NCBI GenBank assembly: GCA_002690915.1
Contig: NZGF01000050.1
Span: 1 to 64,000, forward strand
Direction of reading: 5' to 3'
DNA: 64,000 nt
Source: Crocinitomicaceae bacterium
GTDB lineage: Bacteria > Bacteroidota > Bacteroidia > Flavobacteriales_D > Sanyastnellaceae
A model generated the notes under the pieces. The model did not search any database. It saw only the letters and a program-made list of their open reading frames with translations, and was not told the DNA's origin. How positions within the stretch are numbered: the first letter of the stretch is position 1; every line of letters starts with the position of its first letter. A program made the position numbers and the translations under genes. Positions 17,697 to 34,478 of the stretch are shown one piece after another.

Positions 17697-19883
17697 TCAG
17701 CGAATGATCAGTCGAGCAGGGAGGTATTCACCATAATGCACCAGGTAAACACCGGGTTTTAATTGCCCAACATCGAGGCGAGTGGTGCGCGCAGTGATTT
17801 GACGTTCTAGCACCAATCGGCCGCTGGCATCCCGAAGTTTGAGCCATTCGCTCGTCACTTCTTCTACAGCCACGGTCAGTTGGTCTGCTGCGGGATTTGG
17901 ATACAACGTGCACGCTGTTTCCAATGTAGCCGCTTCGGTTATGCCGACACCCATGCCATTCAGCAATCCTGAAAATTCTTGATAGTACAGGTTCGCGACG
18001 CGCTCGTCGTGGATAACCAATGTGTTCTCATCATTGGTCGTCTCCGCCGTGGTGGACCAGTTGTGTGAGCCTGTTACAACCGTTGGATCAGAGAGGGCCT
18101 CGCTGTGATCTACAATGGCATATTTGTGGTGCAACTGACCTGAGATGCCTTGGTGCGAGTAGATTTCAATGCCGGCATCAAGCAACGGTTCGTATTCTGA
18201 GCCGGTGTCGTTTATGTTCTCCATGGCACCCACAGGGTTGATGAACAAGCTCGAACCCGCCTCGATTACTGCTGCGCCGAGGTCGTTTCGCGTGAAGCTC
18301 AGGACGGCAAAATTGAAGTCGTAATTCGTTGATTCGATGGCGCCGAGGATGGCCGAAGTCGTTCCGTCGGTAGGCGAGAAGTACAATTCAACTGGGCTTC
18401 CGCCGATAAGGAAGCGACGGGGGGTATTGATGGACTTGGCCGCGCCGAACTTCGCGTTGTCCGGATCGGGATCCATGCCCGAAGAGCCCCACATCTCCTC
18501 AAATTCTAGGGTGTACGCCCGGGCCAAGCTCTGGTCGCCCAAGATGATGATGTTATTGGGATCGGTGTTGAGGTTGCCGGTCGTGAAGTTGGTGGATCCG
18601 GTGAGAACAAACGCATTCTGTGCATCGTTCCGGTCGCCCACGATAAACTTATTGTGCATGCCACTGCCCATGCCGTCGGTACGGAAGTGCACGGGCATGC
18701 TTTCGTCGATAGCACTCAGGCCCAGGTTGGCATTCTGCCCTTCCGCGATGTAACGCACCTGAACGCCGTTAGCGATAGCCGTGTTGATGGCTTGCTCGAT
18801 GGCGGAGTTGTTGATGTTGTAGGCCGCGATATCCAGCGTGTTTTGCGCTGAAGTGATGTAAGCCGCGATGGTATCGTTGGTGTTGGTACCCAATGCTTGT
18901 GCCTCCTCAATGGTCGCCACATTGTTGTCCACCTGGGTGGTAAAGTACGCGCGGATGTAACCAGGTGATTCCGACACCGTAGCGTACGGACGGATGGTCG
19001 ATGCGGTGGAATCTTCACCTGCAATGGAAATCACGCGGGCGTAATAAATGGTGCCCGGCTCCAGTCCGTCGACCGTTACTTGGTGCTCCAAGACTTGCAT
19101 GTCGTCGACCAACTCCATGCCGAGGTCGGGCGTGAGCCCGTACTCTACATGCGAGTCGCCGAGGACGTCCGTGTTCCACACCAGGTCGAAGCCGTTGGTG
19201 GTGATGTTGATTTGGTCAACCTGCGTGCTCAAATTGATGGCAGATGTGGGGACGAGATCGTCACTGCTACGCGGAAGCAATTGGTAACCACCAACCCCGT
19301 CAAACGTGAATTGCGAAACCACACCGTAGAGGTCCACTTCACCTGCGGGCAGCACCTGCTCGACTAGCTCGTTGTCATTGCGTACGTAGATGATGCCGTC
19401 CTCACCTGCCGCCGCAAAGCTAAACGTGCTGTTGCCGGTGATAACGGTGCCGCCATTTGTGAAGACAACATCAGGGATGTAAGCCAACTCGCCCTCCATG
19501 CTTTCGTTCATGTCGTTGGGTGTGATGGATTGGAAAGCAGGCAGTTCGTTGCCCGTGGAGAGTACGGTGATGTCGGTGATGCCGTCGGGTCCAACTTCGA
19601 GCAATCCGTTGTATTCACTCAGGGCTGCCGTCATGGTTAACTCATCCCCGATTTGCGGATCGGGCCAACCGTTTTGCGTCCATTGTCCGCCAGGGTACAA
19701 GGCGATGCCTGCCGTCTCGTCTTGGAGGTAACGGACAATGCCGAGGTTTCCGTCTGAGGTAACGATACCCGTGACGGTTACGGTTTGGCCCACACTGTAG
19801 TTGGTGCGCGCGTCGAGAATGTCCGTTTGTCCCCAAGCGGTGAATGCTGAGAGGCAGAGGAGGGAGGTAAAGAGGTTTTTCAT
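17697..19883 (-). CDS. OB-fold / fibronectin / phospholipase-D-fold secreted protein, T9SS type A (possible extracellular nuclease)
   Basis: A 728-residue protein with signal peptide, OB-like domain (about 20-205, VTVTGIVTSDGNLGIVRYLQ), FnIII-like domain (about 215-310) and two phospholipase-D half domains. Each half has an HxK motif: H410-N-K412 in GMHNKFIVGD and H585-H-K587 in QLHHKYAIVDH, each followed by a GSxNx-type segment (LTGSTNFTT, VTGSHNWST). A T9SS type A tail ends the protein (LYPNPAADQLTV). The PLD superfamily includes phospholipases and nucleases. The OB-like N-terminus and the organisation resemble secreted nucleases, so I infer a nuclease, but lipase activity is not excluded. 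It is the last gene of a three-gene operon (gaps of 11 bp) behind a TonB receptor and a lamin-tail protein. Confidence 0.85.
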   Translation of the reverse strand: MKNLFTSLLCLSAFTAWGQTDILDARTNYSVGQTVTVTGIVTSDGNLGIVRYLQDETAGIALYPGGQWTQNGWPDPQIGDELTMTAALSEYNGLLEVGPDGITDITVLSTGNELPAFQSITPNDMNESMEGELAYIPDVVFTNGGTVITGNSTFSFAAAGEDGIIYVRNDNELVEQVLPAGEVDLYGVVSQFTFDGVGGYQLLPRSSDDLVPTSAINLSTQVDQINITTNGFDLVWNTDVLGDSHVEYGLTPDLGMELVDDMQVLEHQVTVDGLEPGTIYYARVISIAGEDSTASTIRPYATVSESPGYIRAYFTTQVDNNVATIEEAQALGTNTNDTIAAYITSAQNTLDIAAYNINNSAIEQAINTAIANGVQVRYIAEGQNANLGLSAIDESMPVHFRTDGMGSGMHNKFIVGDRNDAQNAFVLTGSTNFTTGNLNTDPNNIIILGDQSLARAYTLEFEEMWGSSGMDPDPDNAKFGAAKSINTPRRFLIGGSPVELYFSPTDGTTSAILGAIESTNYDFNFAVLSFTRNDLGAAVIEAGSSLFINPVGAMENINDTGSEYEPLLDAGIEIYSHQGISGQLHHKYAIVDHSEALSDPTVVTGSHNWSTTAETTNDENTLVIHDERVANLYYQEFSGLLNGMGVGITEAATLETACTLYPNPAADQLTVAVEEVTSEWLKLRDASGRLVLERQITARTTRLDVGQLKPGVYLVHYGEYLPARLIIR

Positions 19884-19894
19884 TCGGTTGTGCG

Positions 19895-22804
19895 TTAGAA
19901 TCGGATGCGGATACTGAGGTTGGTGCGAAAGCCGTAGCCCATATATACGCTGGCAGATCCGGCATCGAAGTTGTTTTCACTGAAGGCGTATTTGCGGTCA
20001 GGATCTGTGAAATACCATTCGCCGTATGCGTCGTTGTTTTGAGCGTTGCTGAGGTAAATGGTATTCAAAATGTTGAACGCACTCAAGCGCACGTCCATGT
20101 TTGTTTCGTTTACGTTGAAGTTGTAACCGGCGTGGAGGTCCAAAAGTCCGTACGTCGGAATTTGCCACGACTGTCGACCTTCGTTTTCGCCGTTCAAGCT
20201 GAAAGGATCGAAGTCGGCGTAGTGGCGGCTGAAGACTGTGAAGCGCGGTTTGATGTACACGTTCTTATAGCTGTACTTTACAGAGATGCTGTATTGGCTT
20301 TGCGGCGAATCACCGACTGAGACACCCTCCGCATTGTACTGCACAATGGCTGCATTGCCCTCCGCATCAACGTAGGGGAGGTTGCTGTCGTCGTCGAGCA
20401 GCACGAGGCTGTCCTCGGAGCTGGTCCACCGCCAATCCCCTAAGCTGGCATAGCCCTCGATGGTCAAAGAAGGATGCACGCGCCATGCCACATCGGTTTC
20501 CAGTCCCTTGTGCAGCGCACTCATCGAGTTGACGTTGGCACGGACGATGTCGCCCTCGACCGTTTCAAACCGCAGCAACGACTGCAGCGGCCGGTTTTGC
20601 CAATCCGTGTAGTACGCGTTGACGTTGACGCTGAACGGAAACTTGCTGTAGCTGTAGCCCCATTCCACGGAATTGATGCGTTCGTTTTGTGTGTTCTCGA
20701 CGAAGTTGTTGTCAAAGTCCACGACGTTGCGGAAGACCGGCGTTCGGTTCAAGTGACCCAGGTTGACAAACGTGTTGGCGTACTCGCTCAAATTGTAATT
20801 GCCCCCGGTTTTGATAGTGTACCCTGGAATCCATTTCCACCCACTTGTCGTGAACTGACCGTCTTCCTGCAGCTGAGCAAAGTAGTCGACGCTCTTGTAT
20901 CCTTGGGTCACGGCACTGACGTTAAAAAAGGCGTTCCACAAATAGCCTTTGTATTCGAGCAACGCAAAGGCACCGCCCCACCGAACAAACGCGTCGTTGT
21001 GGTAGCCGATCTTGTCCCCGACAAAGCGCATATTCGTCAAGGCATTGCTGTTGCGGGTGTCCACGAAGTAACCCCCGCCGAGCAAGTCGAACACCTCCGC
21101 ATACTTCTCACTTTGGTACGTGCGAAAGTCCAACCCACCGGAGAGGGTGAGCGATTCAGAGGTTTCGTGGCGGAAGGTGGACAGGATACCGTACCAGTAG
21201 TGGTTGTTGAAGAGTTTGCGCAGTATACGACCGGACTTCACGAGAGAATCGCTGTAATTCGGGTCGATCAATGGGCCGAACAGGTCGCCAATGGTGTTGG
21301 TGTTGTAAAACTTCTGGAAGTCGACTTGTCCATCGGGCGTGTAGTCGCCACCGCCTAGGCTGTTTTCCAGCCGTGTTCCCCCGCCGAACCCATAGCTTGC
21401 GTAGGCCATGTTAGAGATGTACAGCTTGTCCGAAACGCGCCAGCTGTGGCGCAGCGAGAAGAGCGGCTTGTGGTATTTGTTCTGGCGCTCGTACAAAACG
21501 TCGTTGTTGAGCATGCCCCAGTGCACATTGTAGTTGTCGCCGTAGCTGACTATTCCCGTGGTATCGATGAAGTCCGTGGCGGAGACTCTAGCTTCAAATT
21601 CATCGGCAGTGCCCGTTCGCCAGTTCCGTCCAAATTTGTGCAAGGGAGAGCTTTGAGCATAACTCCCAGACTGCGAATACCCAAATTCTTCGTTTAATTC
21701 CCAATATGCAGCTCGACGTTCATTCAGACTGAGAGACTCGTCATTAAAAATATTGTCATACCCTTGGCTGTATGCCATCAATTCGGCGTATTCTTCATCC
21801 GTTCCTTCGAACAACGAACGCGCGTACTCCTTGTTATGGGTCGCAATGCGCTGCTGGTAACCGCGGGAGGCGTTTTCAGACGGCGAACCGGTGGCACTGA
21901 TTGAAAGCGTATGGTTCCCAAAGGCCTTCTGAATTTTCACATAGTAGAAGAAGGCCCGGTTGTAATCTTGTTGGAAATAGCCTTGTCGGTTTTGGAAACT
22001 ACCGGCGAGCGTGTAGCCCCACCCTCCGTCGAGTCGTCCTGAGGTGTGACCAAGGGACGTACGGGTGAAGCCGAAGCTGCCCACCTCCTGCTTGACCGAA
22101 GTCTTGCGGGAGGACTCGATTCCAGAGGTGACAATGTTGACGGTGCCACCGATGGCGGGCAAGGCGAGTTTCGAAGCGCCGAGGCCGCGCTGAACCTGCA
22201 TGGTTTGGGTTACCAAGTCCAATCCAAACCAATTGTTCCAGTAGACCGCCCCGCTCTCCATGTCGTTGACAGGGATACCGTCGACCAACACCGAGACGTT
22301 CCGCTGCTTGAAGCCACGTATCGAAATCGAAGGTCCGTTGTCGTCCGATCCTGCTTGGGTGGCATAAACTCCGGGCGTGCTGTTTAAAATCATCGGAATG
22401 GGCTGCGAGCCTAATTCCTCTTGAATCTGAACAGGTTTGATGTTGGAGAAAGCAACTGGCGTCTCGCGCTCGATGGCGACGTCGGCAATGACCTCAGCCT
22501 CTTGCAGTACAATGGTGCTCAGCTTGAAGTTGGCCTGCAACAGATCGCGGTCCACCTGCACTGAGCGGATCTGGCTCTCGTAGCCGATGTACTGCACCGT
22601 GATGTCGTACGTACCATAGGGAAGATCCAATGTGTATGCCCCATCGAAATCGGTCGCCACGCCGGTGCCGTTCACCAATACACTGGCCTGAATCAGGGTC
22701 TCACCCGTGATTGCATCTGACACAACACCGGTAACCTTTCCGGTTTGCGCCCATGCAGCCGAGCTCAGCCAAAGGGCCAAGCCTGCAATCGCCAATCGCT
22801 TCAT
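19895..22804 (-). CDS. TonB-dependent outer-membrane receptor
   Basis: A receptor of 969 residues from ATG 22804; the track start at 22807 is a TTG. Upstream, AAGGAG sits about 10 nt before the ATG and could be one of the few Shine-Dalgarno-like sites here. Domains: signal peptide (MKRLAIAGLALWLSSAAWAQ), a carboxypeptidase-regulatory-like domain (about 22-105, GVVSDAITGETLIQASVLV), a plug (about 115-230, ISIRGFKQRNVSVLVDGIP) and a long barrel ending in an aromatic residue (LSIRIRF). It lies between genes for a lamin-tail T9SS protein and a PLD-fold T9SS protein with 11-bp gaps, so the ligand may be a product of those proteins. No SusD partner is present, which argues against a classical polysaccharide-utilisation locus. 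Confidence 0.92.
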   Translation of the reverse strand: MKRLAIAGLALWLSSAAWAQTGKVTGVVSDAITGETLIQASVLVNGTGVATDFDGAYTLDLPYGTYDITVQYIGYESQIRSVQVDRDLLQANFKLSTIVLQEAEVIADVAIERETPVAFSNIKPVQIQEELGSQPIPMILNSTPGVYATQAGSDDNGPSISIRGFKQRNVSVLVDGIPVNDMESGAVYWNNWFGLDLVTQTMQVQRGLGASKLALPAIGGTVNIVTSGIESSRKTSVKQEVGSFGFTRTSLGHTSGRLDGGWGYTLAGSFQNRQGYFQQDYNRAFFYYVKIQKAFGNHTLSISATGSPSENASRGYQQRIATHNKEYARSLFEGTDEEYAELMAYSQGYDNIFNDESLSLNERRAAYWELNEEFGYSQSGSYAQSSPLHKFGRNWRTGTADEFEARVSATDFIDTTGIVSYGDNYNVHWGMLNNDVLYERQNKYHKPLFSLRHSWRVSDKLYISNMAYASYGFGGGTRLENSLGGGDYTPDGQVDFQKFYNTNTIGDLFGPLIDPNYSDSLVKSGRILRKLFNNHYWYGILSTFRHETSESLTLSGGLDFRTYQSEKYAEVFDLLGGGYFVDTRNSNALTNMRFVGDKIGYHNDAFVRWGGAFALLEYKGYLWNAFFNVSAVTQGYKSVDYFAQLQEDGQFTTSGWKWIPGYTIKTGGNYNLSEYANTFVNLGHLNRTPVFRNVVDFDNNFVENTQNERINSVEWGYSYSKFPFSVNVNAYYTDWQNRPLQSLLRFETVEGDIVRANVNSMSALHKGLETDVAWRVHPSLTIEGYASLGDWRWTSSEDSLVLLDDDSNLPYVDAEGNAAIVQYNAEGVSVGDSPQSQYSISVKYSYKNVYIKPRFTVFSRHYADFDPFSLNGENEGRQSWQIPTYGLLDLHAGYNFNVNETNMDVRLSAFNILNTIYLSNAQNNDAYGEWYFTDPDRKYAFSENNFDAGSASVYMGYGFRTNLSIRIRF

Positions 22805-22815
22805 CAAAAAACTCC

Positions 22816-23739
22816 TTATTGAATGACAACTCGGTGCGCAAAGGTGCGCCCATCAGTGAGGTGGATGTTCACGAAGTAGGTGCCGCTCGCGAGGTCTGTC
22901 AATGCAAATTCGCGCACGGTTTGTGCCACGTTTTCATCACGCAAGAGTTGACCGGCTGTGGTGTAGACGGTGACGCGCTGGATTGCTTCGGTGGCCGAGA
23001 GGGTCAAATTCCCATCGGCGGAAGGGTTGGGGAACACTGCGGTCTCAACCGCAGGCAACTCTTCGAGAGCGTTCGGGCTGCAGGCGCAGCTGTGGATGCC
23101 GAGTCCGTCCCACGTGTTGATTAAAAGGGTGTCCCACTCGAGGAACGTGTTGAAGCTGACCGGAGGGATGGTCACGCCCTGCATCACATCGAACTTGCGG
23201 CGGAGCGTGTGGTTCGAGGTCAACCAGGGGGCGCCGTCGCCAATGTCGATGTAGCCATTTGCTTCGTCATTTGTCCACGCCACCCCTGGGTCTTCACCGG
23301 GCTTCCCGAAAATGTCAATCACGGTGGTTTCGTTCTTGACCAACACCAAAGCATCGTCACCATTCATGTAGGTCGGAGCCGGGTAAGGGTTGTCCAATTG
23401 GTCAGCATATGCCTGCATCGCAGGATCGCATGCGGGCGAAGTGGCGCCGCCACCCAAGTCGACGTCTTCGGTTTGTCCGTTGACGAGCACCCAAGTGCCA
23501 AAGGGTTCAATAGTGCCGATGAGATTGGTCCAATCTGTTGCGGTTCCCTCCCCGTTGCTCCAGCGCTGGAGCTCGTAAGCCGAGAGGTCAATGGCTTCGC
23601 CGGTAGGGTTGTAAAATTCCACGCCCTTGTTGTTGCCTGTGCCTTCGCAGTATTCAGAGATGAAGATCTCGGTGCATTGTGCTTGGACCAATGCCGGCAA
23701 GGTGAATGCCAATGCCAATTGGAGGAAAGTGAATCGCAT
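22816..23739 (-). CDS. Lamin-tail-domain secreted protein with T9SS type A domain
   Basis: The track begins at 24039, but that would overlap the divergent YjbR gene. ATG 23739 starts a clear signal peptide (MRFTFLQLALAFTLPALVQAQ) and yields 307 residues. Residues about 22-200 form a lamin-tail domain (IFISEYCEGTGNNKGVEFYN, AIDLSAYELQRWSNG), a fold found in Bacteroidota on many secreted nucleases and phosphatases. The tail from about 220 is a T9SS type A domain (VFPNPSADGNLTLSA to VVIQ). It has no catalytic domain, so it may bind substrate or surface. It is first in the operon with the TonB receptor and the PLD-fold protein. Confidence 0.83.
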   Translation of the reverse strand: MRFTFLQLALAFTLPALVQAQCTEIFISEYCEGTGNNKGVEFYNPTGEAIDLSAYELQRWSNGEGTATDWTNLIGTIEPFGTWVLVNGQTEDVDLGGGATSPACDPAMQAYADQLDNPYPAPTYMNGDDALVLVKNETTVIDIFGKPGEDPGVAWTNDEANGYIDIGDGAPWLTSNHTLRRKFDVMQGVTIPPVSFNTFLEWDTLLINTWDGLGIHSCACSPNALEELPAVETAVFPNPSADGNLTLSATEAIQRVTVYTTAGQLLRDENVAQTVREFALTDLASGTYFVNIHLTDGRTFAHRVVIQ

Positions 23740-23794
23740 GTGATTTGGTTTTTGTGAAAATCGTCGCAATTTAACCGGGAAATAGCCAAAATCG

Positions 23795-24163
23795 ATGAGA
23801 ACGTTTGAATTTGAGGAAGTGCGAGACCGAAGTCTGTCGAAACCCAAAGTCACAGAGGAATTTCCCTTCGACGCAAATACGTGTGTGTGGAAGGTGGCAA
23901 ACAAGATATTCGCCTTAGCCGATATCGATGCCTTCGACGGCGTGACGCTCAAATGCGATCCGGAATACGCCGTAGAATTGAGGGAGCAGCACACGGGCAT
24001 CATTGGCGGATACCACGCTAACAAAAAACACTGGAACACCGTCCGGTCGGAAGCGGATGTTCCGCGCTCACTGGTCCTCGCCTTGATAGACCACAGCTAC
24101 GAGCGAGTTGTCGCAGGTTTTTCACAAAAACAACGCAAGGCGCTCGGATTGCAAGGGCATTGA
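23795..24163 (+). CDS. YjbR/MmcQ family protein
   Basis: A 122-residue cytoplasmic protein of the YjbR/MmcQ fold, sometimes described as DNA-binding. Typical family phrases are present: VTEEFPFDANTCVWKVANKIFAL near the start, then VTLKCDPEYAVELRE and HWNTVRSEADVP. The exact role of the family is unsettled. It is the first plus-strand gene after the secretome region, divergent from the lamin-tail gene by 55 bp, and is followed 13 bp later by the symporter gene, whose own -7-like box lies in that gap. Confidence 0.85.
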   Translation: MRTFEFEEVRDRSLSKPKVTEEFPFDANTCVWKVANKIFALADIDAFDGVTLKCDPEYAVELREQHTGIIGGYHANKKHWNTVRSEADVPRSLVLALIDHSYERVVAGFSQKQRKALGLQGH

Positions 24164-24176: not shown

Positions 24177-25940
24177 ATGGAGATTGCAGCATTGGATTGG
24201 GCCATCATTGGCGCATACTTTTTGTTGGCCCTCGGCGTTGGCATCTGGGCATCGCGGGTCGTAGGGAATTCGGTAACCGGGTTTTTCCTTGCCGGCCGCA
24301 ACATGCCCTGGTGGCTGTTGGGCATAAGTATGGTAGCCACGACGTTTTCCACCGATACCCCCAACTTGGTCACGGGCCTCGTACGCGAGCAAGGAGTCAG
24401 TGGGAACTGGGGGTGGTGGGCCTTCTTGCTGACAGGCATGCTCACCGTCTTTGTTTACGCTCGGCTTTGGCGGCGATCGGGTGTGATGACGGACATCGAG
24501 TTTTATGAGTTGCGTTACGGCGGTAAGCCCGCAGCGGCATTGCGCGGATTTCGGGCGCTGTATTTGGGGCTGGTTTTTAACGTGCTCGTCATGGGCACCG
24601 TTTCGCTCGCTGCTATCAAGTTGGGCGGCATCTTGCTGGGGTGGCCTGGTTGGTTGACTTTGCTCGTTACGGGTGCCATCACATTGTTGTACAGTACGTT
24701 GGGCGGTTTGAGAGCGGTCATTTTGACCGACTTTGTGCAATTCATCTTGGCGATGATTGGCTCGATCTGGGCCTGCTGGTACATTTTGAATCTGGATGCG
24801 GTTGGTGGATTGGATGCGCTGTTGGCCCATGCGGACGTGGCGTCCAAAACGAGCATATTCCCTGCCATGGACGATCCGGCCCAGTGGGTTCCAATTCTAG
24901 TGGTTCCCCTCGCGGTGCAGTGGTGGGCCAGTTACTACCCAGGCGCCGAACCGGGCGGCGGCGGTTACATCGCACAGCGCATGTTCAGCGCCAAAGACGA
25001 AAGCCATGCGGTGGGGGCGACTTTGCTGTTCAATGTGGCACATTACGCGCTGCGTCCGTGGCCTTGGATTTTGATTGCGTTGGCGTCGATTGTGGTATTC
25101 CCCACACTGGCGGATTTACAGGCGGCGTTCCCGAACATCCCGGCGGACAAAATTGGCCACGACTTGGCCTATCCGGCCATGTTGTCATTGTTGCCAGAAG
25201 GGCTCTTGGGCTTGGTCGCGGCATCCTTGTTGGCCGCCTTCATGAGCACCATGTCCACCCAGCTCAACCTCGGCGCGAGCTACCTCGTCAACGATTTTTG
25301 GGTGCGATTCATCCGACCGGATGCGACCGATGCGGAGCAAGTGCGGGCAGGTCGATTGGCGACCGTTGTCTCGTTGATGCTCGGCAGCGGGCTCGGTTTG
25401 CTATTAACCGATGCCGGCCAAGCCTTTAACCTGTTGTTGCTCATCGGGGCTGGAACAGGCGGCCTGTTCATCTTGCGGTGGTTTTGGTGGCGCATCAATG
25501 CCTGGACCGAGTTGGTGGCAATGGCCGGATCGCTCCTCATTGCAGGCTATTTCACCTTTGTTCACGACAATACCGGCCTATTGGAATTGGCGGCGTACGA
25601 GAAGCTTATCTGGGGTTCGTTACTCACCACATTGGTCTGGGTGGTGGCGACTTATGTGACACCCCCAGAATCGGAAGAGACCCTGCGCGCTTTCGTGGAA
25701 AAAGTGAATCCCGGCGGTCCCGGATGGACGCGTTGGGCAACTGCGGAAACGGCTGTTCCTTGGCCGGTGCCTCGGGGTATTTTATCCATGGTATTGGGGT
25801 GTACGGGGGTCTATGCAGCGCTCATTGCAACGGGTTCTTGGTTGTACGGCGATGCCACGACGGCCATGATTTTGGCGTCGGTGACAGCGGGAAGTGCGTG
25901 GGCAGTATTCGTTTTGAACCGAACGCCGGCAAACGCATGA
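24177..25940 (+). CDS. Sodium:solute symporter (SSS family), probable sugar importer
   Basis: A polytopic inner-membrane protein of 587 residues from ATG 24177; the upstream part in the track is an extension over the YjbR gene. It has the LeuT-like symporter layout with about 13-15 membrane helices. Family-typical stretches include FFLAGRNMPWWLLGISMVAT near the start, YSTLGGLRAVILTDFVQF and LAAFMSTMSTQLNLGASYL, the last being close to the sodium-binding region of SSS proteins. The closest relatives in Bacteroidota are annotated as sugar or solute transporters. Its stop overlaps the start of the sugar-kinase gene (ATGA), so the two are translationally coupled. I infer uptake of the sugar that the kinase uses, possibly a hexosamine from the GH20 enzyme downstream. 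Confidence 0.88.
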   Translation: MEIAALDWAIIGAYFLLALGVGIWASRVVGNSVTGFFLAGRNMPWWLLGISMVATTFSTDTPNLVTGLVREQGVSGNWGWWAFLLTGMLTVFVYARLWRRSGVMTDIEFYELRYGGKPAAALRGFRALYLGLVFNVLVMGTVSLAAIKLGGILLGWPGWLTLLVTGAITLLYSTLGGLRAVILTDFVQFILAMIGSIWACWYILNLDAVGGLDALLAHADVASKTSIFPAMDDPAQWVPILVVPLAVQWWASYYPGAEPGGGGYIAQRMFSAKDESHAVGATLLFNVAHYALRPWPWILIALASIVVFPTLADLQAAFPNIPADKIGHDLAYPAMLSLLPEGLLGLVAASLLAAFMSTMSTQLNLGASYLVNDFWVRFIRPDATDAEQVRAGRLATVVSLMLGSGLGLLLTDAGQAFNLLLLIGAGTGGLFILRWFWWRINAWTELVAMAGSLLIAGYFTFVHDNTGLLELAAYEKLIWGSLLTTLVWVVATYVTPPESEETLRAFVEKVNPGGPGWTRWATAETAVPWPVPRGILSMVLGCTGVYAALIATGSWLYGDATTAMILASVTAGSAWAVFVLNRTPANA

Positions 25941-26983
25941 TTGTCAATGCGTCAGCACCGGGCAGAATTTGCCTGTTTGGCGAACATCAGGACTATTTTG
26001 GGTTGCCCGTGGCTGCGGCCGCCATTGACCTGCGCGGCCAATTGCGCAGCACCTCGCGGTCGGATCAGACCGTTGAATTGCACCTTTTGGATTTGGATGA
26101 GGTCCACACGTGGAACCTTAATGAACTGCCTCGGCCCGACCCGCGGGAGTACTGGTTGGCGGCCCTGCACGTGGCTCAGGAGGAGGGTTGGCTTCCGAAA
26201 AGCGGATGGCGTGCGGAAGTGACAAGTGCCATTCCGCAACAAGCCGGTGCGAGCAGTTCGAGTGCGCTCACAGCTGCATGGTGCGCATTGATTGCTACTC
26301 GGGCAGAAAAGACTTTCGATAACGAATGGGTGGCGCATGCAACTTGGCGTGTGGAAGTTGCCTTTTTTGATGAGCCCGGGGGCATGATGGACCAAGTGAT
26401 GTGTGCCATGGGCGGTGTTCGAACGGTCGATTTCCATCCCGAGTTTCATACCCGCCTGCTTCCTCGTCCTCCCGGGGACTGGTTGCTCATCGATTCCGAG
26501 CAGCCGAAGGACACGCTGGGAATTTTGGCTCGCGCCAAGCACCACCGGCTCGACCTTCTCGAAGCTTGGGGTGCTTCCCTGCACGAAGGGTTTTTTCCCG
26601 ACCGACCGTCGGGATGGGGCCCGCACGATCACCGACTCATGGACGCGACCGTAGGCATTCAATCCGTTTCTGACTTCGGCCGGTCCCTGCTTGAACAGCA
26701 AGGCGTTTCGTGTAAAGCCATTGGCCACCAGTTAACGGAGCACCATCGGTGGCTGTCCGAGGGCATCCAAGTTTCGACGAATCGCATCGATGCTTTGCTC
26801 AGGAAGGCGCTTGATCTTGGGGCATGCGGTGGAAAAATTAACGGGTCTGGAGGAGGTGGAACGGCTTTTGCGGTCTTCCCTGAAGGCAGACAACAAACAG
26901 CACTAAAGGAATTAAGAGCAGCAGGGGCACGGGTGATCCCCATTGCGCTGGGTGCCGAAGGTGTTTGCGTAGAGGTCATTTGA
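25937..26983 (+). CDS. GHMP-family sugar kinase (galactokinase-like)
   Basis: A 348-residue kinase from ATG 25937. The track's start at 25478 is an extension inside the symporter gene. Motifs in order: the galactokinase signature GRICLFGEHQDYFG (residues 9-22), the ATP-binding loop PQQAGASSSSALTAAW, a GGMMDQ motif whose Asp is the likely catalytic base, and the C-terminal GGKINGSGGGGTAFAVF. GHMP kinases of this branch phosphorylate the anomeric hydroxyl of sugars. With a nucleotidyltransferase next door, a sugar-1-phosphate product fits. The substrate could be galactose, GalNAc, GlcNAc or another sugar; Q replaces the Thr of classical GEHTDY. It overlaps the symporter stop by 4 bp. Confidence 0.85.
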   Translation: MIVNASAPGRICLFGEHQDYFGLPVAAAAIDLRGQLRSTSRSDQTVELHLLDLDEVHTWNLNELPRPDPREYWLAALHVAQEEGWLPKSGWRAEVTSAIPQQAGASSSSALTAAWCALIATRAEKTFDNEWVAHATWRVEVAFFDEPGGMMDQVMCAMGGVRTVDFHPEFHTRLLPRPPGDWLLIDSEQPKDTLGILARAKHHRLDLLEAWGASLHEGFFPDRPSGWGPHDHRLMDATVGIQSVSDFGRSLLEQQGVSCKAIGHQLTEHHRWLSEGIQVSTNRIDALLRKALDLGACGGKINGSGGGGTAFAVFPEGRQQTALKELRAAGARVIPIALGAEGVCVEVI

Positions 26984-27006
26984 GTCAGATGTGTGAACTT
27001 CGAAGC

Positions 27007-28503
27007 ATGACGTGCAATCGGATTATTGTGTTGGCAGCCGGACGGGCCACACGTATGCGTACCAGTGCCGCATCGGCTGAGTCCACGCGCTTCGTCCAAG
27101 ATGCATTGGAACGGCCCAAGCCCATGATCCGGGTGGGACCCAATAATGAACCCATGCTGCAGCTCATCCTTGAGCAAGCCCTTCGAGCAGGGTTCACAGA
27201 AGCAACCGTGGTCATTGCACCCAACGACACCATCACGTCTTCATTCCTGCAGGAGTGGGGCTGTCAAGGCCGGGGGATGCGCATCAGAACGGCGGTGCAA
27301 TCTGAACCCAAGGGTACAGGCCATGCGGTCCAATGCGCGCTTGAGAGCGACCCGGTGCCGCCCGGAGCCATGTGGGTATTGGCGAACGGAGACAACTTGC
27401 CCACACGATCGGCATTAGCGCGTTTGCGGATAGAGGGCTCAGGTCCGGCTGTGTTGGCTTACGATCGGGATGCGTTGGGCTTAGACCCGAACAAAACAAT
27501 GGCTTTTGCAGTGCTGGAAGGCGATGGTTCCACGGTGCACCGCATCACTGAGAAGCCGGATGCTGCGATTGTAGATCGCTTGGCCGAGAGCGGTTCGGTT
27601 CGCGTTTCAATGAACTACTTCCGCCTTGAAGTCGATCGGCTAAAGGCACACTTGGCGGCCTTGGAGCCGCATCGAGAACGCGGCGAACTCGAGCTGCCCA
27701 CCGCATTGCAAGCGATGATGGATGCCGGTGCAGGACTGACACAGATCAACGTGGCAGAAGAAGTGTTGGATTTGACTCGCATTCAAGACGTTGCGTGGGT
27801 CCAAGCTGGATTGCACCTGCTTGAACCGTACCAGTTGGAGGTGTGTGCGAGTTCTCCGATGGATGTCCGAACGGCCGCAGCGGCCGGTGCTCAGCGTGTT
27901 GAATTGTGCGCGCATTGGGAGTGCGGCGGATTGACTCCCACGGAAGCGGACATTCGCATGGCGAGTGCGGTAGGTTTACCGGTGCACGCGCTCATCCGAA
28001 GCCGCGCCGGCCACTTTGTTTACAGCGCAGAGGAGAAAGAATTGATGACGGCCCAAATCGAGGCTTCATTGGCTGCCGGCGCCGTCCGGGTGGTGGTGGG
28101 CGCCTTGCAGGCCGATGGAACGTGGGATACGCCATTGTTGAGCCGCTGGGTGGAAGCATTTGGTGCCCACCGCATCGTAATCCACCGGGCATTTGATGCC
28201 TGTACGGATTGGGAGGGCGCAGCGACGTCGTTGAAGGCACTCGGTGTGCGCCGATTCTTGACCAGCGGCGGCGAACCCCTTGCTTGGAACGGGCGCGATC
28301 GCATTCGTCATTTGGCAGCGGAAGGTTTTGACGTGACGGTCGGGAGTGGCGTTGTGCCTGAGCAGCTGGCGGATTGGATGGATATTGGCATCACTCAATT
28401 TCATGCCTCATGCAGAGAAGTGGACGATCGTGCGACGGCGTTGTTTGACGGAAAGGCTAGTAAGGTCAGTCCGGCTTCGGTAAGGCGCTGGTTCAATCGG
28501 TGA
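27007..28503 (+). CDS. Sugar nucleotidyltransferase fused to a CutC-family domain
   Basis: A 498-residue bifunctional protein from ATG 27007 (ATG 26989 is also possible; the track's TTG 26965 overlaps the kinase gene). Residues 1 to about 265 form a nucleotidyltransferase: IIVLAAGRATRM, then RPKPMIRV after an insert of about 18 residues, PKGTGHAVQCAL, and NGDN with the metal-binding Asp. Residues about 275-495 form a complete CutC TIM barrel: RVELCAHWECGGLTP, IRSRAGHFVYSAEE, IHRAFDAC, FLTSGGEP and FHASC are all intact. CutC was named for copper homeostasis, but that role is poorly supported. Fusion to a sugar enzyme in a salvage operon points to sugar chemistry. No stop or frameshift separates the domains. 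Confidence 0.85.
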   Translation: MTCNRIIVLAAGRATRMRTSAASAESTRFVQDALERPKPMIRVGPNNEPMLQLILEQALRAGFTEATVVIAPNDTITSSFLQEWGCQGRGMRIRTAVQSEPKGTGHAVQCALESDPVPPGAMWVLANGDNLPTRSALARLRIEGSGPAVLAYDRDALGLDPNKTMAFAVLEGDGSTVHRITEKPDAAIVDRLAESGSVRVSMNYFRLEVDRLKAHLAALEPHRERGELELPTALQAMMDAGAGLTQINVAEEVLDLTRIQDVAWVQAGLHLLEPYQLEVCASSPMDVRTAAAAGAQRVELCAHWECGGLTPTEADIRMASAVGLPVHALIRSRAGHFVYSAEEKELMTAQIEASLAAGAVRVVVGALQADGTWDTPLLSRWVEAFGAHRIVIHRAFDACTDWEGAATSLKALGVRRFLTSGGEPLAWNGRDRIRHLAAEGFDVTVGSGVVPEQLADWMDIGITQFHASCREVDDRATALFDGKASKVSPASVRRWFNR

Positions 28504-28519
28504 TTGGTAGGCGGTATGC

Positions 28520-28526
28520 TATTTTG
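28520..28526 (+). promoter_or_regulatory. -7-like box before the GH20 gene
   Basis: TATTTTG followed by CACC and then ATG 28531. The box lies in the 27-bp gap after the fused CutC gene and may give an internal promoter. Confidence 0.35.
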
Positions 28527-28530
28527 CACC

Positions 28531-30741
28531 ATGGAAAAACCCTTGCTGATATTTGCTCTTGCTCTTCTTCTAGGGGCATGCGCTCCACTTGCAGAGGCAC
28601 CCCCATTGGAACTCATCCCGCATCCGATAAGCTGGAATCCGGGCCAGAGCACTTGTTCCCTCTCCGGTACATGGAACTTGGAAGTGGCGGAAGAATGGAA
28701 GGATGAGCGGGGTTTTTGGTTGGATTGGCTGGTGGCTGATTCCGATGGGAATGAAGGGAAGGCCGTGGTGGTGATCATGGAGCGAGCACACGGCATGGAA
28801 CCCGAGGCGTATGCGCTTGCCATTCGCCCGGAGGGGATCCGCATCGAAGCCGGCTCGGAACACGGGGCGTTTCATGCTTTGACGACGTTGCGTTCCCTCG
28901 TCCTGACAAGTGGAGGTGTCTTGCCGTGCGGCGACCTGGTGGATGCGCCACGGTTCGCGCACCGGGGGTTGCTGCTGGATTGTTGCCGGCATTTTATGGA
29001 ACCGGATTTTGTCAAGCGCATGATTGATTTGCTGGCGTTGCACAAAATGAGCGTTTTGCATTGGCATCTCACGGAAGACCAGGGATGGCGTGTTGAAATT
29101 GATGCTTATCCCGATTTGACCCAAAAGGGCGCATGGCGGACCGAAGCGGATGGCAGCCAACACGGCGGTTTTTACACCAAGGAGGAAATCCGTGACATCG
29201 TCGCCTACGCAGCCCAGCGCCATATTGAAGTCATCCCCGAAATCGAGCTCCCGGGCCACAGCCGAGCGGCATTGGCTGCTTACCCTTGGCTCGGTTGCAC
29301 AGGTGAGGCCATGGAGGTGCCGAACGACTGGGGGGTTTTTAAGGACATTTACTGCGCAGGGCAGGATACGACCTTGGCGTTCTTGAAAACCGTGCTTGAT
29401 GAGGTGATGGAGCTTTTTCCCTCCGAATACATCCACATCGGAGGAGATGAGGCACCCAAGGTGCGCTGGGAGCAATGCCCTAGATGCCAGAAGCGCATTG
29501 CGGATGAAGGCCTGCACGACACGCACGAATTGCAGTCGTGGTTTATTGGTGAAATCGGCCGTTACCTCGAAGCGCATGGCCGAAAGATGATCGGTTGGGA
29601 TGAAATCCTGGAAGGTGGGTTGCCCGCGGATGCCACGGTGCAGTCGTGGCGCGGTATGGACGGCGGCCGCGATGCGGTGGCAATGGGCCACGACGCCATC
29701 ATGTCGCCAACGTCGCACTGTTATTTTGACTACCCAGTGGAGTCCACAGACCTGGAGAAAGTCTATGGGTTTGAACCCGAACCGGAGGGCCTCAACGGCA
29801 GCGGCCAAATCCTTGGAGGGGAGTGCAACATGTGGAGCGAACGGGCCCCACAGCACCTAGTGGAATCTAAAGTATTTCCGCGCCTCGTGGCCATGGCAGA
29901 GGTACTTTGGAGTCCGCCATCAACTAAGAGTTGGCGGGGCTTCCAAGAGCGTATGGAATCTCATTATGGCCGATTGGATGCTTGGGAGGTTGCCTATGGA
30001 TGGGAGACGGTTCCAATGGCGTTGGAATGGAAAAAGGGTCACACTCCAAACAGCCTTCAGGTCCAAATCGTTCCCGCCATGTTCGGCGTGGATGGAATCG
30101 GGGATTTTGTGTTGCGCAGGGGGAGCACAGCAGCAGCGGCCCTGGGTATGGAGGAATTTCATTCCGTTGAAGGAGAGGGGGAGTTGCGGGTCACATTGTC
30201 GCGCAAAGGCGCATCGATGGGAGATCTCTTGGTGTTTCCACTGGCCGGTCACGCCGGCGCATTTCGAGCGGTCGAATTGGACCATGAAATCAATGCTTAC
30301 TACCCCGGGCGAGGGTCACAGGGCCTAGCGGACGGGCGGCTGGGTTCGGATGATTTTCGCGATGGTTCTTGGCAGGCCGCCAATGGCCAGCATATGGGTG
30401 TCACCGTGGAGTTGGATGCCCCAACCCAAATTGATTCATTGAGTATGCAAGTGTACCGGTACCAGGACGCGTGGATTTTCCTGCCGGATTCGGTGCGGTT
30501 CCAGTGGTCCGTAGATGGTGAACATTGGGACGGTGAGTGGCGGGAGCAACCGTTTGGGTCGCCCACCTTTGACCCCAGCGAAGCCCAGGATGTAAATCGC
30601 TTGGTTATCCCTGTTGGTGAAACGGCACGTTGGGTGCGATTCGAAGCCCGCAACCCCGGTCCTTGCCCCGATTGGCATGACGGCGCGAGTTCAGCTACGT
30701 GGCTGTTTCTGGATGAATTGGTGGTGCACAGCCAACCTTAA
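28531..30741 (+). CDS. GH20 beta-N-acetylhexosaminidase lipoprotein
   Basis: A 736-residue exported enzyme that removes terminal beta-linked GlcNAc or GalNAc from glycans. ATG 28531 begins a lipoprotein signal (FALALLLGAC, Cys17), so it is an envelope-anchored enzyme. A GH20b N-terminal domain (about 25-135) precedes the catalytic barrel (about 140-490). The family motif IHIGGDEAPKVRW puts the catalytic Asp-Glu pair at about residues 306-307, and LHWHLTEDQGWRVEI and PEIELPGHSRAAL are also typical. The C-terminal part (about 590-736) looks like an F5/8-type sugar-binding domain (DGSWQAANGQHMGVTVELD). It ends the symporter / kinase / CutC-fusion operon and would supply the sugar for it. Confidence 0.93.
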   Translation: MEKPLLIFALALLLGACAPLAEAPPLELIPHPISWNPGQSTCSLSGTWNLEVAEEWKDERGFWLDWLVADSDGNEGKAVVVIMERAHGMEPEAYALAIRPEGIRIEAGSEHGAFHALTTLRSLVLTSGGVLPCGDLVDAPRFAHRGLLLDCCRHFMEPDFVKRMIDLLALHKMSVLHWHLTEDQGWRVEIDAYPDLTQKGAWRTEADGSQHGGFYTKEEIRDIVAYAAQRHIEVIPEIELPGHSRAALAAYPWLGCTGEAMEVPNDWGVFKDIYCAGQDTTLAFLKTVLDEVMELFPSEYIHIGGDEAPKVRWEQCPRCQKRIADEGLHDTHELQSWFIGEIGRYLEAHGRKMIGWDEILEGGLPADATVQSWRGMDGGRDAVAMGHDAIMSPTSHCYFDYPVESTDLEKVYGFEPEPEGLNGSGQILGGECNMWSERAPQHLVESKVFPRLVAMAEVLWSPPSTKSWRGFQERMESHYGRLDAWEVAYGWETVPMALEWKKGHTPNSLQVQIVPAMFGVDGIGDFVLRRGSTAAAALGMEEFHSVEGEGELRVTLSRKGASMGDLLVFPLAGHAGAFRAVELDHEINAYYPGRGSQGLADGRLGSDDFRDGSWQAANGQHMGVTVELDAPTQIDSLSMQVYRYQDAWIFLPDSVRFQWSVDGEHWDGEWREQPFGSPTFDPSEAQDVNRLVIPVGETARWVRFEARNPGPCPDWHDGASSATWLFLDELVVHSQP

Positions 30742-33700
30742 CACGGCTGCCCCCATACGGTCAACATACCGAGCAAATCGCCAGTGTTGATATCCCCGCT
30801 GCCGTCTAAATCCAACACGGGGGAGGCTCCGTTGCCACCCACGTCTACAGCTTCCCCAAAGTGTACGAGCAACAGAAGCAAATCCGGCAAGTTGCGTAGG
30901 CCGTCGGAGTTGAAGTCACCGGGGCACAAACAGGGGTAGCCACCGGCTTCAAAACAGTCGGTGCCGAGCAAAGGGAAAGCATACTGCTCTGCCAACAAGA
31001 AAGCGTCCATGCCCAGCACCTCTCCCATGGCTCGACCGGGGAAATCATCGATGGGCGGGTGAATGCCACCCCATATGCGCGACAGCGCGCTTTGATCGGC
31101 CGCATCGCGGTAGGTGGCCCATTGCAATTCAAAATCCATAGACGGCCCGTCCTCAAAGACGAGGAATTCGTGGGCTTCCACCGGAAACGCTCCCAGGCCT
31201 CCGGGGAAGTAGGCATCGCCCGTCAAGGCGGTCAGCACCTCAGCTGCCGCTCGACTGAATGTCGAGTGTCCGCTCACGTAGCCGGCGAAAGGTGGCGTGA
31301 CAAAGGTCGGACGCTGGTACGGCCACCACTCGCGGGCACGTATCCAATCCACGCCTGCCCACTGCAGAGCCGGAACCCCAATGTAATCCGGTCCTTTCCA
31401 GCACCGGATTTTCATCTCGTACAGGTGCTCGTTGTTGGGACCGCGGAGTTCTATGGGATCTTCTGGACTGATTTGTTCAATGTGTCCCGGGATGATGGGC
31501 AAGCCCGCTCCGTGGTAGTTTGGAAGCTCCGGGTCCGTGCATTGCCCACGGTCGGCCATCCAGCGCAACGCTGAAACCGGTCGGACGTAGTCGTGCCAGC
31601 CTTTGCAACTCCAAGCGGCAATCGCCGCATCGTGCATGGCGCCGCCCATGGAGAAGTAGGCGATGACGTCCCAGTCTAGGGCATTGAGCGGCTCGCCTAG
31701 GCCGCGCCATTTGCGTTGCAATTCGGGTTGGTCGTTGACGTAGTTCAGGAGGGTAAACCAGTGTCCGGGCGGGGTTTCCGAATCCGGTCCGTCAGCCCAG
31801 TATTCTGCCAGCACCCGGGTGAAGTCTCCACGCAAGACCGGCTGTGCAGCGTAAGGTTCGCCTGATACAGGATTGAACGGGTGCCCGGGTTCCACACCTG
31901 CAGCAACAGGAACGCCATCGACAGCATAATAATCGCGAGCTTCTTCCACACTGCTGGGCAAGAATCCATTCCAGCTGAATGCGCCGGGTCCGATGTCCCA
32001 CACCACGGAATCGGCGGGATCGAGGTGAGAGGCCCACAGGGCAACGAGGGTATGCCCCCATTTGTAATCGCTTTCCAGTCCTGTTTCTTCGTTCGGATTG
32101 ATTTGCGCGGGAGGCCCGGGATCGTGGTACACGGTGTAGGTACTCCCGAGCCGTTCAAATTGAGCCGTATCTGCCGCTGTCATTGCAAAAGGCTGGACGT
32201 CCCCCCATTCCGGGCTCAGGAAGTCTGGTGAGATGTTCGAGCCTTCGTTCCCCGATTGGTCGATGAATTCGGCCAATTGCAGGGGTTGCCAGCGGTTCGG
32301 GAAAAACATGTTGGGGTTGCCTGGTTCGTCCATCACCAGGTTCCAATTCATGGGATTGTAGTAGGTATTTTGGTAGTCGATGACTTCAAACGATCCGTCT
32401 TGGAGTCCGTATGCGATGTAATTTTCGGCGAGGTAATTGCCCAGTGAAGCCGCTCGCTCCATCCACGTTCCATTCGTGTAGTCGGTCTCGTGCCATGCCG
32501 TGTCGTAGCCGAGTGCTTCCATTTGGCTGTCGATGTGTGTGGTGATTCGCTCAGCACGTGGGGCGTTTACAAAGCGGTGCTGGAGCAGCCGGTACACCCC
32601 GTAGCTGATGCTCAATCGGCGTGCCGCTTGCCGATTTTCCGCTTCGATGTCGGGCGAACCATCAAAGGGGCACGTGTAATTTCCTTGTTGGTTGCCCAAG
32701 AGCCATGGCTGAGCGCCCACAATGGTATCCGCACCCCATGCCGCCCACGCGTCGTACATCAGGGCTGAGGTGTGCCAAAGGTTACGCGCATGCACTGTGG
32801 GCCGGGCCCAGTCGTGCCGAATACTGAGCAGCGTAGCTTCGTTCCAGATCCGGGCGACGCTGTGGGTCGCAAGGGTCGGGAAATCCGGAAGGGGACTGCC
32901 TGAACAATCCAATCCAGCCGAGGGGAAGAAGCACGTTCCATCGTCCACCGTCGCAGCCATTTCGTAATTGCACGCATCCGCATTGGTGCAGCCGTTGGTC
33001 AACCAAGGTTCAGCACCCGGCTCAAGTACAGTGTGGATGCTGTCGGCGGCAAACGGTCCGTGCGTGGAGAAGCCGCCGGTGGGCCAGCGAACCACGATAG
33101 AGTCGACGCTGGTCGCAGCGCCCAAACCCATGTGCACATCAAATGAGCTCGAACCGCTGTAGCCCTGCCCGCAATGGATTTCATCGTAGCGGGTTTGGCC
33201 ATCGAAGTGGGCTTCAATGCGCGCTCCGATGGCCGACCGATTGGATGAAGTTCCCTCGAGTCGGAAGCCAATGAAGTGCCCGTTGGTGTTGAGGTTTTCC
33301 AAGATTTGAAATCCCGGCTGGGTGGGAGATCCGGTGGTGGCTATGGCGAGGTCCCAGTCCCCATCTCCATCTAAATCACCCGCTGCCAGTCCGTAATCGC
33401 TGTGGTTGTGTTCCAGCACCGCATCCCCCTCGCTGACCCAGGCGAACGTGCTATCGCCCAGGCCGCGGTACAGACGATTGGACGTTGGGGCAAATGCGTA
33501 GTCGTTCACGATGTACAGGTCGGTTTCGGCATCGTGGTCGTAGTCGAAAAAGATGCATCCCCACGTCATACCGGAATCATCCACGCCTGCATCCTCTGCG
33601 ATGGCGGTGAACGTGCCGTCGCCGTTATTCAAGAACAGCTCGCTCGGGTATAGATCGGTAATGTAGAGGTCCATCCAACCGTCGTGGTTGATGTCCGCTG

Positions 33701-34478
33701 CGTCGACCCCCATGCAGTTGCCCTGGTAATCAAGTCCAACACCTGCTGCATCTTGAGTGAAACTGCCTTGGCCGTCATTCCTGAAAAAGTTGTTGACTTG
33801 GTTGCCATCGTGTGTAGCATACAAATCCACATCTCCATCGTTGTCAGCATCAAAAAATAACGCCCCCATGCCGATTCCGGTATCCACCGTTCCAGAGGGA
33901 AAGGTGACGTTTTGGAAGCCGGTTCCTTCCAGGTTCCGCAGCATGGCGTTGTGGCTATTTATGTTGACTACGTACAAATCCAACCAGCCGTCTCCATCGA
34001 TGTCTGCCGCGTGCAGGCTCCGGCACGGCCCAGCATTCCCAGCATTCCACGTGTCTGTGGCATCGGTGAAGGTGCCGTCCCCGTTGTTTAGAAAGAGCCG
34101 ATTCGGATCTAGGTAATTACCGGTGATCAAATCCAACCATCCGTCATTATTGAAGTCCGCCCATATGACGGCATTGGTCGTTCCCTCATCCGCTACCCCT
34201 GCTGGAATTGCAACTTCTTCGAATTGCATGCCACCGAGGTTCCGGAATAAGCGGTTGGGGGCAAACTTGGTGCCCACGTAGATGTCCTCACGTCCGTCGC
34301 GATCGAAATCTCCGATGGCGACAGCATGGTGCAAGCCATCCACTGCAACCCCCGCTGCTTCAGAAATGTCTTCGAATAGGTCTTGAGCACAGGCCAGGTG
34401 TCCCAGATGCCCCAAAAATAACAGGCACATCATTCTATTGAAAGCAGTCGACAACCGGTGGCGTGGGGTAGGATTCAT
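30738..34478 (-). CDS. FG-GAP/ASPIC repeat protein fused to a vanadium-dependent haloperoxidase, with dockerin-like tail
   Basis: A 1246-residue secreted protein with a signal peptide (to about residue 31). Residues about 33-400 are FG-GAP/VCBS propeller repeats with calcium-loop motifs (DFNNDGWLDL, DIDGDGWLDLYV). Residues about 400-490 are an ASPIC/UnbV domain, and a short cysteine motif follows (GCTNADACNY...DDGTC). Residues about 530-1165 are a vanadium haloperoxidase/PAP2 domain with all expected vanadate ligands: K959 and R966 (CKGWHDYVRP), S1069-G-H1071 (YVSGHST) and R1134 with H1140 (SRIWGGIH). The end has two dockerin-like EF-loop repeats (DFNSDGLRNLPDLLLLL, DLDGSGDINTGDLLGML) instead of a T9SS tail. 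It overlaps the GH20 stop by 4 bp, convergently. Likely role: extracellular halide oxidation. Confidence 0.85.
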   Translation of the reverse strand: MNPTPRHRLSTAFNRMMCLLFLGHLGHLACAQDLFEDISEAAGVAVDGLHHAVAIGDFDRDGREDIYVGTKFAPNRLFRNLGGMQFEEVAIPAGVADEGTTNAVIWADFNNDGWLDLITGNYLDPNRLFLNNGDGTFTDATDTWNAGNAGPCRSLHAADIDGDGWLDLYVVNINSHNAMLRNLEGTGFQNVTFPSGTVDTGIGMGALFFDADNDGDVDLYATHDGNQVNNFFRNDGQGSFTQDAAGVGLDYQGNCMGVDAADINHDGWMDLYITDLYPSELFLNNGDGTFTAIAEDAGVDDSGMTWGCIFFDYDHDAETDLYIVNDYAFAPTSNRLYRGLGDSTFAWVSEGDAVLEHNHSDYGLAAGDLDGDGDWDLAIATTGSPTQPGFQILENLNTNGHFIGFRLEGTSSNRSAIGARIEAHFDGQTRYDEIHCGQGYSGSSSFDVHMGLGAATSVDSIVVRWPTGGFSTHGPFAADSIHTVLEPGAEPWLTNGCTNADACNYEMAATVDDGTCFFPSAGLDCSGSPLPDFPTLATHSVARIWNEATLLSIRHDWARPTVHARNLWHTSALMYDAWAAWGADTIVGAQPWLLGNQQGNYTCPFDGSPDIEAENRQAARRLSISYGVYRLLQHRFVNAPRAERITTHIDSQMEALGYDTAWHETDYTNGTWMERAASLGNYLAENYIAYGLQDGSFEVIDYQNTYYNPMNWNLVMDEPGNPNMFFPNRWQPLQLAEFIDQSGNEGSNISPDFLSPEWGDVQPFAMTAADTAQFERLGSTYTVYHDPGPPAQINPNEETGLESDYKWGHTLVALWASHLDPADSVVWDIGPGAFSWNGFLPSSVEEARDYYAVDGVPVAAGVEPGHPFNPVSGEPYAAQPVLRGDFTRVLAEYWADGPDSETPPGHWFTLLNYVNDQPELQRKWRGLGEPLNALDWDVIAYFSMGGAMHDAAIAAWSCKGWHDYVRPVSALRWMADRGQCTDPELPNYHGAGLPIIPGHIEQISPEDPIELRGPNNEHLYEMKIRCWKGPDYIGVPALQWAGVDWIRAREWWPYQRPTFVTPPFAGYVSGHSTFSRAAAEVLTALTGDAYFPGGLGAFPVEAHEFLVFEDGPSMDFELQWATYRDAADQSALSRIWGGIHPPIDDFPGRAMGEVLGMDAFLLAEQYAFPLLGTDCFEAGGYPCLCPGDFNSDGLRNLPDLLLLLVHFGEAVDVGGNGASPVLDLDGSGDINTGDLLGMLTVWGQPC

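Follow-up and report, generated by a model that had tools for sequence, protein, structure and literature searches.

A predicted N-acetylhexosamine salvage operon with a GHMP-family kinase in a Crocinitomicaceae bacterium

The DNA analysed here is a stretch of 64,000 nucleotides from a Crocinitomicaceae bacterium (contig NZGF01000050.1; hereafter the window, G000:C51, from a 2.39-Mb assembly that is 85% complete). It carries a cassette encoding an SSF-family sodium:solute symporter, a GHMP-family sugar kinase, a nucleotidyltransferase fused to a CutC domain and a GH20 lipoprotein. Comparative sequence analysis indicates that this cassette is probably an N-acetylhexosamine (HexNAc) salvage operon, in which HexNAc would be converted through HexNAc-1-phosphate to UDP-HexNAc. 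The observations behind this reading are the content, order and conservation of the genes, the fusion of kinase and nucleotidyltransferase in relatives, HexNAc-linked gene neighbourhoods and a genus in which the 6-phosphate enzymes were not found; from these we infer the substrate, phosphorylation at C1, the use of UTP and a role for CutC.

In the predicted route, the GH20 lipoprotein would free terminal β-linked N-acetylgalactosamine (GalNAc) or N-acetylglucosamine (GlcNAc) at the cell envelope and the symporter would import the free sugar with sodium. The kinase would then phosphorylate the sugar at C1 to HexNAc-1-phosphate, and the nucleotidyltransferase domain, probably with UTP, would make UDP-HexNAc, which could feed directly into envelope and glycan biosynthesis.

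Organization and conservation of the cassette

The four genes, identified from the sequence, its open reading frames and Pfam matches, lie head to tail on the plus strand (lengths in amino acids, aa):

24177–25940, + strand: SSF-family sodium:solute symporter, 587 aa, putative HexNAc importer
25937–26983, + strand: GHMP sugar kinase, 348 aa, putative HexNAc 1-kinase
27007–27825, + strand: nucleotidyltransferase domain, ~273 aa, putative HexNAc-1-phosphate uridylyltransferase
27826–28503, + strand: CutC domain (Pfam CutC), C-terminal part of the nucleotidyltransferase fusion
28531–30741, + strand: GH20 β-N-acetylhexosaminidase lipoprotein, 736 aa (Pfam GH20, lipobox, catalytic motif)

The 3′ end of the symporter gene overlaps the start of the kinase gene by 4 bp (ATGA, 25937–25940), the fusion gene (27007–28503) follows the kinase after a 23-bp gap, and a gap of 27 bp separates it from the GH20 gene. 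Coordinates and Pfam matches confirmed the head-to-tail arrangement and the ATGA overlap reported in a preliminary description of this DNA. The gene order was also looked up in related genomes and is not limited to this one, being kept across the genus and in a second genus (G029).

The genus was represented by 22 genomes, of which 11 reach 90% completeness or more. A kinase match was present in 19 of the 21 genomes other than that of the window, some of the matches being fragments at contig ends, and was not found in the remaining two (G004 and G007); four other genera of the family also had one. The order symporter, kinase, nucleotidyltransferase-CutC, GH20 was unbroken in every genus contig of sufficient length and recurred, with GH20 in some cases left out, down to 50% kinase identity. 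The same order and most of the same flanking genes were found in G029, where kinase identity was 39%. Of the cassette proteins the symporter was the best conserved (78–94% identity in the genus and 76% in G029). A candidate triple fusion of kinase, nucleotidyltransferase and CutC in G029 was rejected: the kinase and the nucleotidyltransferase-CutC protein are read in different frames, and it is the latter frame, running upstream, that yields the 746-aa open reading frame. The flanking genes, which encode PLD-domain, TonB receptor, lamin-tail-domain (LTD), FG-GAP/vanadium chloroperoxidase-like and RadC proteins, were likewise syntenic across the genus. This flank synteny alone could account for the genus data, so that more weight was given to other lineages.

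Protein families and gene neighbourhoods

The kinase belongs to the GHMP superfamily, having its N and C domains, the SSS loop, the catalytic motifs and the fold. Its Pfam matches are to GHMP-type families only (GHMP_N, 6e-11; GHMP_C, 6e-10; GalKase_gal_bdg, 6.5e-9), which places it outside the APH family (PF01636) of NahK and BT4240, and the motifs GEHQDY, SSS and GGxMD are invariant or almost so among its relatives. It falls far under the curated cut-offs for galactokinase and mevalonate kinase: the galactokinase models gave 59–88 bits against cut-offs of 227–509, and GalK (TIGR00131) gave 68.1 bits against 226.65. The structure model (pLDDT 92.5) found its best fold matches in archaeal galactokinases (TM 0.87–0.88, 23% identity), and the GALK2 structure 2a2c was among the matches as well. 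The modelled fold fits a C1 sugar kinase and does not tell galactose, GalNAc and GlcNAc apart; it is the gene neighbourhoods alone that point to a HexNAc 1-kinase acting at O1. In a tree of 101 rows the clade of the window kinase was joined to two kinase-nucleotidyltransferase fusion proteins, and the single curated-type galactokinase formed a separate, very long branch.

The symporter matched Pfam SSF at 4e-34, with sodium/galactose and sodium/glucose cotransporters as its best solved relatives (1e-32). The nucleotidyltransferase domain is of the sugar-1-phosphate type (GlmU/RmlA/UGP) by domain and fold: it matched Pfam NTP_transferase (5e-8) and NTP_transf_3, its NCBIfam matches (Arch_glmU, RmlA, UDPGP and GlmU) were all under cut-off, with no curated equivalog threshold reached, and its fold matches were UDP-glucose pyrophosphorylases, RmlA and GlmU. 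The GH20 protein is a β-N-acetylhexosaminidase by its domains (Pfam GH20, 1e-111, plus GH20b), by its similarity to the solved β-hexosaminidase 6q63 (3e-136) and by a retained HIGGDE motif with the catalytic Asp-Glu; its N-terminus, MEKPLLIFALALLLGACAP, contains a lipobox (LGAC).

Relatives of the kinase occur in Marinimicrobia, Ignavibacteria, Calditrichota, KSB1, Aminicenantes, Cytophagales and Flavobacteriaceae. The pairing of kinase with nucleotidyltransferase extends over several phyla, which further argues against an arrangement peculiar to this genome. The two enzymes form one polypeptide in L048/L152 and in L154, where the fusion is followed by a separate CutC gene and then GH20. Close homologues of the symporter (E 1e-240 to 1e-280) directly precede the kinase gene in Marinimicrobia. 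Among 20 kinase loci fetched from an evenly drawn phylum sample of 396 genomes, 16 had the nucleotidyltransferase, eight had GH109, GH20, NagB-type or NagP-type genes, and five more had an epimerase. In other lineages GH20 is an accessory and not a core member of the set. In eight Aminicenantes loci (L097, L099, L101, L104, L119, L136, L143 and L144) a kinase relative occupies a different, conserved neighbourhood that has an amidohydrolase and an RNase Z-like protein but no SSF symporter, nucleotidyltransferase or glycosidase.

The recurrent neighbours GH109, GH20, NagB, NagP and GlmM are part of HexNAc metabolism. Of 68 loci, 24 had GH109 near the kinase, as did four of the 20 from the even sample, and a GH109 neighbour matched a solved α-N-acetylgalactosaminidase at 4e-146. 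A single GH109 gene was present in 17 of 20 genomes with GH109 near the kinase or related, a set mostly picked for a nearby GH109 and therefore informative on copy number, not on frequency. The epimerase neighbour is an SDR protein resembling, among others, WbgU and WbpP, which are UDP-HexNAc 4-epimerases. In Flavobacterium (L150) the following are encoded together: a NagP-like transporter, NagB (244.8 bits; cut-off 236.9), an epimerase, a nucleotidyltransferase, a LacI-type regulator, the kinase, GlmM (503 bits; cut-off 439) and a sulfatase. By gene content this covers most of the steps that lead from GalNAc to fructose-6-phosphate. In relatives the predicted route would continue from GalNAc in that direction through a UDP-HexNAc 4-epimerase-like enzyme, joined in Flavobacterium by GlmM and NagB.

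Similar groupings were observed elsewhere: kinase, nucleotidyltransferase, NagP and NagB in L193/L194; a NagB-like protein, epimerase, nucleotidyltransferase, kinase and SSF symporter in L190; and kinase, nucleotidyltransferase, GH20, GH35 and GH109 in L175. The protein of L190 is a divergent, NagB-like one that matches TIGR00502 at 1e-22, and in the two such proteins tested the NagB-family matches were well under cut-off. A divergent NagB-like protein also lies near the symporter and kinase in L093, as in L190, and Marinimicrobia and one other lineage have proteins of this kind, of ~780 aa, adjoining the kinase or close to it (L093:5941-8277, L190:5157-7502, L118:6463-8811).

The recurrence of GH109, GH20, NagB, NagP and a UDP-HexNAc-type epimerase in independent lineages supports an N-acetylhexosamine substrate, and with it the sequence of release, import, 1-phosphorylation and nucleotide activation put forward in the preliminary description. 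For the kinase family overall GalNAc appears the likelier substrate, and GlcNAc is possible in the genus of the window.

The 6-phosphate route, the CutC domain and competing readings

Genes of the 6-phosphate route were sought by family searches in the 22 genus genomes, with controls, Bacteroides included, that were positive. NagB gave no match at all in any of the 22, NagA none over cut-off, and no ROK-family protein was found, non-ROK GlcNAc kinases not being covered by the search. As the NagB model picks up the divergent NagB-like proteins of relatives at 1e-22, such proteins should have been detected in the genus as well. Classical NagK-NagA-NagB catabolism was accordingly not found, and the 6-phosphate route looks absent from the genus. 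GlmU over its curated cut-off was found in no genus genome; GlmU-like proteins of ~337 aa were present. Since the usual 6-phosphate enzymes were found nowhere in the genus, the cassette is apparently its main way to use N-acetylated amino sugars, and the sugar is probably recycled and not burnt. A bypass of the 6-phosphate route, suggested earlier from the window, is therefore on firmer ground than the window could provide.

The CutC domain (PF03932, 1e-41) forms the second of two parts in the structure model of the fusion protein, the first having a UDP-sugar pyrophosphorylase-like fold. It matched the fold of human and Shigella CutC (TMt about 0.8), and both the genus and G029 retain the fusion. 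The preliminary description had assigned CutC no function. Among 30 CutC loci from the phylum (L199-L228), 15 had a glycosylasparaginase relative next to CutC and a further three had GH2 or GH20 there (18/30 in all); the one glycosylasparaginase relative tested matched a solved enzyme at 2e-129. These neighbours place CutC in the context of N-glycan or HexNAc handling and argue against a simple copper role. CutC is thus best read as part of N-glycan/HexNAc metabolism, where, as a guess, it perhaps handles a glycosylamine or another N-glycan-derived form of HexNAc.

Several observations weigh against the salvage operon. The solved kinases closest by sequence and fold are galactokinases and not GALK2, and no assayed enzyme of this kinase family was found in the literature. 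The nucleotidyltransferases of Marinimicrobia resemble that of the window weakly (E about 1e-9 to 1e-11). The kinase of Aminicenantes mostly occurs without nucleotidyltransferase, SSF symporter or glycosidase, so that a shared function is not required of every relative. The cassette has no dedicated 4-epimerase, the genus having SDR relatives at 28–37% identity only, and the CutC domain has no explanation in the proposed route.

A variant compatible with the salvage operon, possible though somewhat short of likely, concerns the substrate. GH20 and an unlinked glycosylasparaginase would free GlcNAc from N-glycans, CutC would handle the N-glycan-derived form, and the kinase and nucleotidyltransferase would make UDP-GlcNAc for peptidoglycan. 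GlcNAc needs no epimerase, consistent with a cassette that has none, the CutC neighbourhoods described above fit this source, and a glycosylasparaginase homologue (54–66% identity) is present in most genus genomes. That gene, however, lies elsewhere in the genome, unlinked to the cassette, and the GH109 and epimerase neighbours of the kinase family elsewhere point to GalNAc. A more ambitious version of the salvage reading is doubtful as it stands: that the GHMP-kinase HexNAc route extends over several phyla and, in a whole genus devoid of the 6-phosphate pathway, is the sole one for HexNAc, with the fused CutC as a catalytic member whose substrate might be, for example, the 1-amino sugar that glycosylasparaginase releases.

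It is unlikely that the kinase is instead a divergent galactokinase, with galactose passing through galactose-1-phosphate to UDP-galactose by pyrophosphorylase action, as in a Leloir route lacking GalT, and GH20 merely exposing galactose. The structural and sequence matches of the kinase and the resemblance of the symporter to sodium/galactose and sodium/glucose cotransporters would agree with this, as would GH36-like proteins beside the kinase in eight relatives, the GH35 of L175 and the 21 of 22 genus genomes in which no galactokinase exceeded the curated cut-off. The remaining genome (G010), however, has such a galactokinase as a separate gene (L171, G010:C15:22179-23300) alongside the cassette kinase. 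The scores of 59–88 bits, far under the galactokinase cut-offs, and the recurrent neighbours GH109, GH20, NagB, NagP and GlmM also argue for HexNAc. Adjacency of the four genes through genus synteny only, with no common pathway, would suit the equally syntenic flanks but is very improbable given the ATGA overlap, the short gaps, the existence of kinase-nucleotidyltransferase and nucleotidyltransferase-CutC fusions and the recurrence of symporter-kinase, kinase-nucleotidyltransferase and kinase-nucleotidyltransferase-GH20 associations among different flanks in other lineages, and for the kinase-nucleotidyltransferase pair it is already largely refuted.

Known pathways and flanking genes

Three known pathways and one characterized locus share parts of the predicted route. 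In the lacto-N-biose/galacto-N-biose pathway of Bifidobacterium, NahK acts before uridylylation and 4-epimerisation. As in the proposed route, a HexNAc 1-kinase feeds a UDP-sugar and 4-epimerase system and not the 6-phosphate route; NahK, however, is an APH-family kinase for which a phosphorylase releases the substrate intracellularly, whereas the cassette has a GHMP kinase, an SSF importer, GH20 and the CutC fusion. Human GalNAc salvage proceeds by GALK2 and then AGX1/UAP1, that is, by a GHMP-family HexNAc kinase and a UDP-HexNAc pyrophosphorylase. The window kinase is no nearer to GALK2 than to galactokinases, and in the bacterium the nucleotidyltransferase belongs to the GlmU/RmlA/UGP type. 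In AmgK-MurU peptidoglycan recycling an anomeric kinase and a uridylyltransferase make a UDP-amino sugar directly, which is the chemistry predicted here; AmgK is not a GHMP kinase. Recycling of N-acetylmuramic acid of this type was rejected for the cassette, whose kinase is of a different family and in or beside which no peptidoglycan-recycling gene was identified.

In Bacteroides thetaiotaomicron, a GalNAc 1-kinase beside GH109 has been demonstrated experimentally, the kinase being of the APH family, in work that also cites NahK (PMC11992087). In that locus (BT4240-50) the GH109 α-N-acetylgalactosaminidase adjoins the GalNAc 1-kinase, as in many cassette relatives, but the kinase BT4240 is of the APH family and the transporter of the MFS type, and no mention of a nucleotidyltransferase was found (PMC11992087). 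The chemistry is thus known elsewhere, from Bifidobacterium, BT4240 (PMC11992087) and human GALK2/AGX1, and what is new is the set of GHMP kinase, SSF symporter and nucleotidyltransferase together with the CutC fusion. Searches of the open-access literature turned up no account of this gene set, which is weak evidence of novelty.

If correct, the salvage operon would represent a second way, based on a GHMP kinase, in which bacteria salvage HexNAc through the 1-phosphate, and would explain how a genus with no detectable NagA, NagB or ROK kinase can use amino sugars from glycoproteins and chitin. Annotators could then rename a large number of proteins whose present resemblance is to "galactokinase", "mevalonate kinase" or "GHMP kinase". 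For CutC, a widespread family with a doubtful copper role, the fusion and the proximity to glycosylasparaginase offer a proposal that can be tested; were CutC catalytic in the route, this puzzling family would gain a function in N-glycan catabolism and not in copper handling.

Upstream of the cassette, genes for a PLD-domain protein of the type IX secretion system (T9SS), a TonB receptor and the LTD protein lie divergently on the minus strand (17697–24039). Homologues of all three adjoin the kinase-nucleotidyltransferase, CutC and GH20 genes in L154, in differing orientation, and may therefore be functionally linked to the cassette. Downstream, a gene on the minus strand (30738–34478) converges with the end of the GH20 gene and is kept with it in the genus and G029; its 1246-aa product has FG-GAP repeats and ASPIC/UnbV and weakly matches the second domain of vanadium chloroperoxidase. 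About 5 kb downstream of the cassette, on the plus strand (35833–36939), lies a gene for a UDP-N-acetylglucosamine 2-epimerase, a possible consumer of the predicted UDP-HexNAc product.

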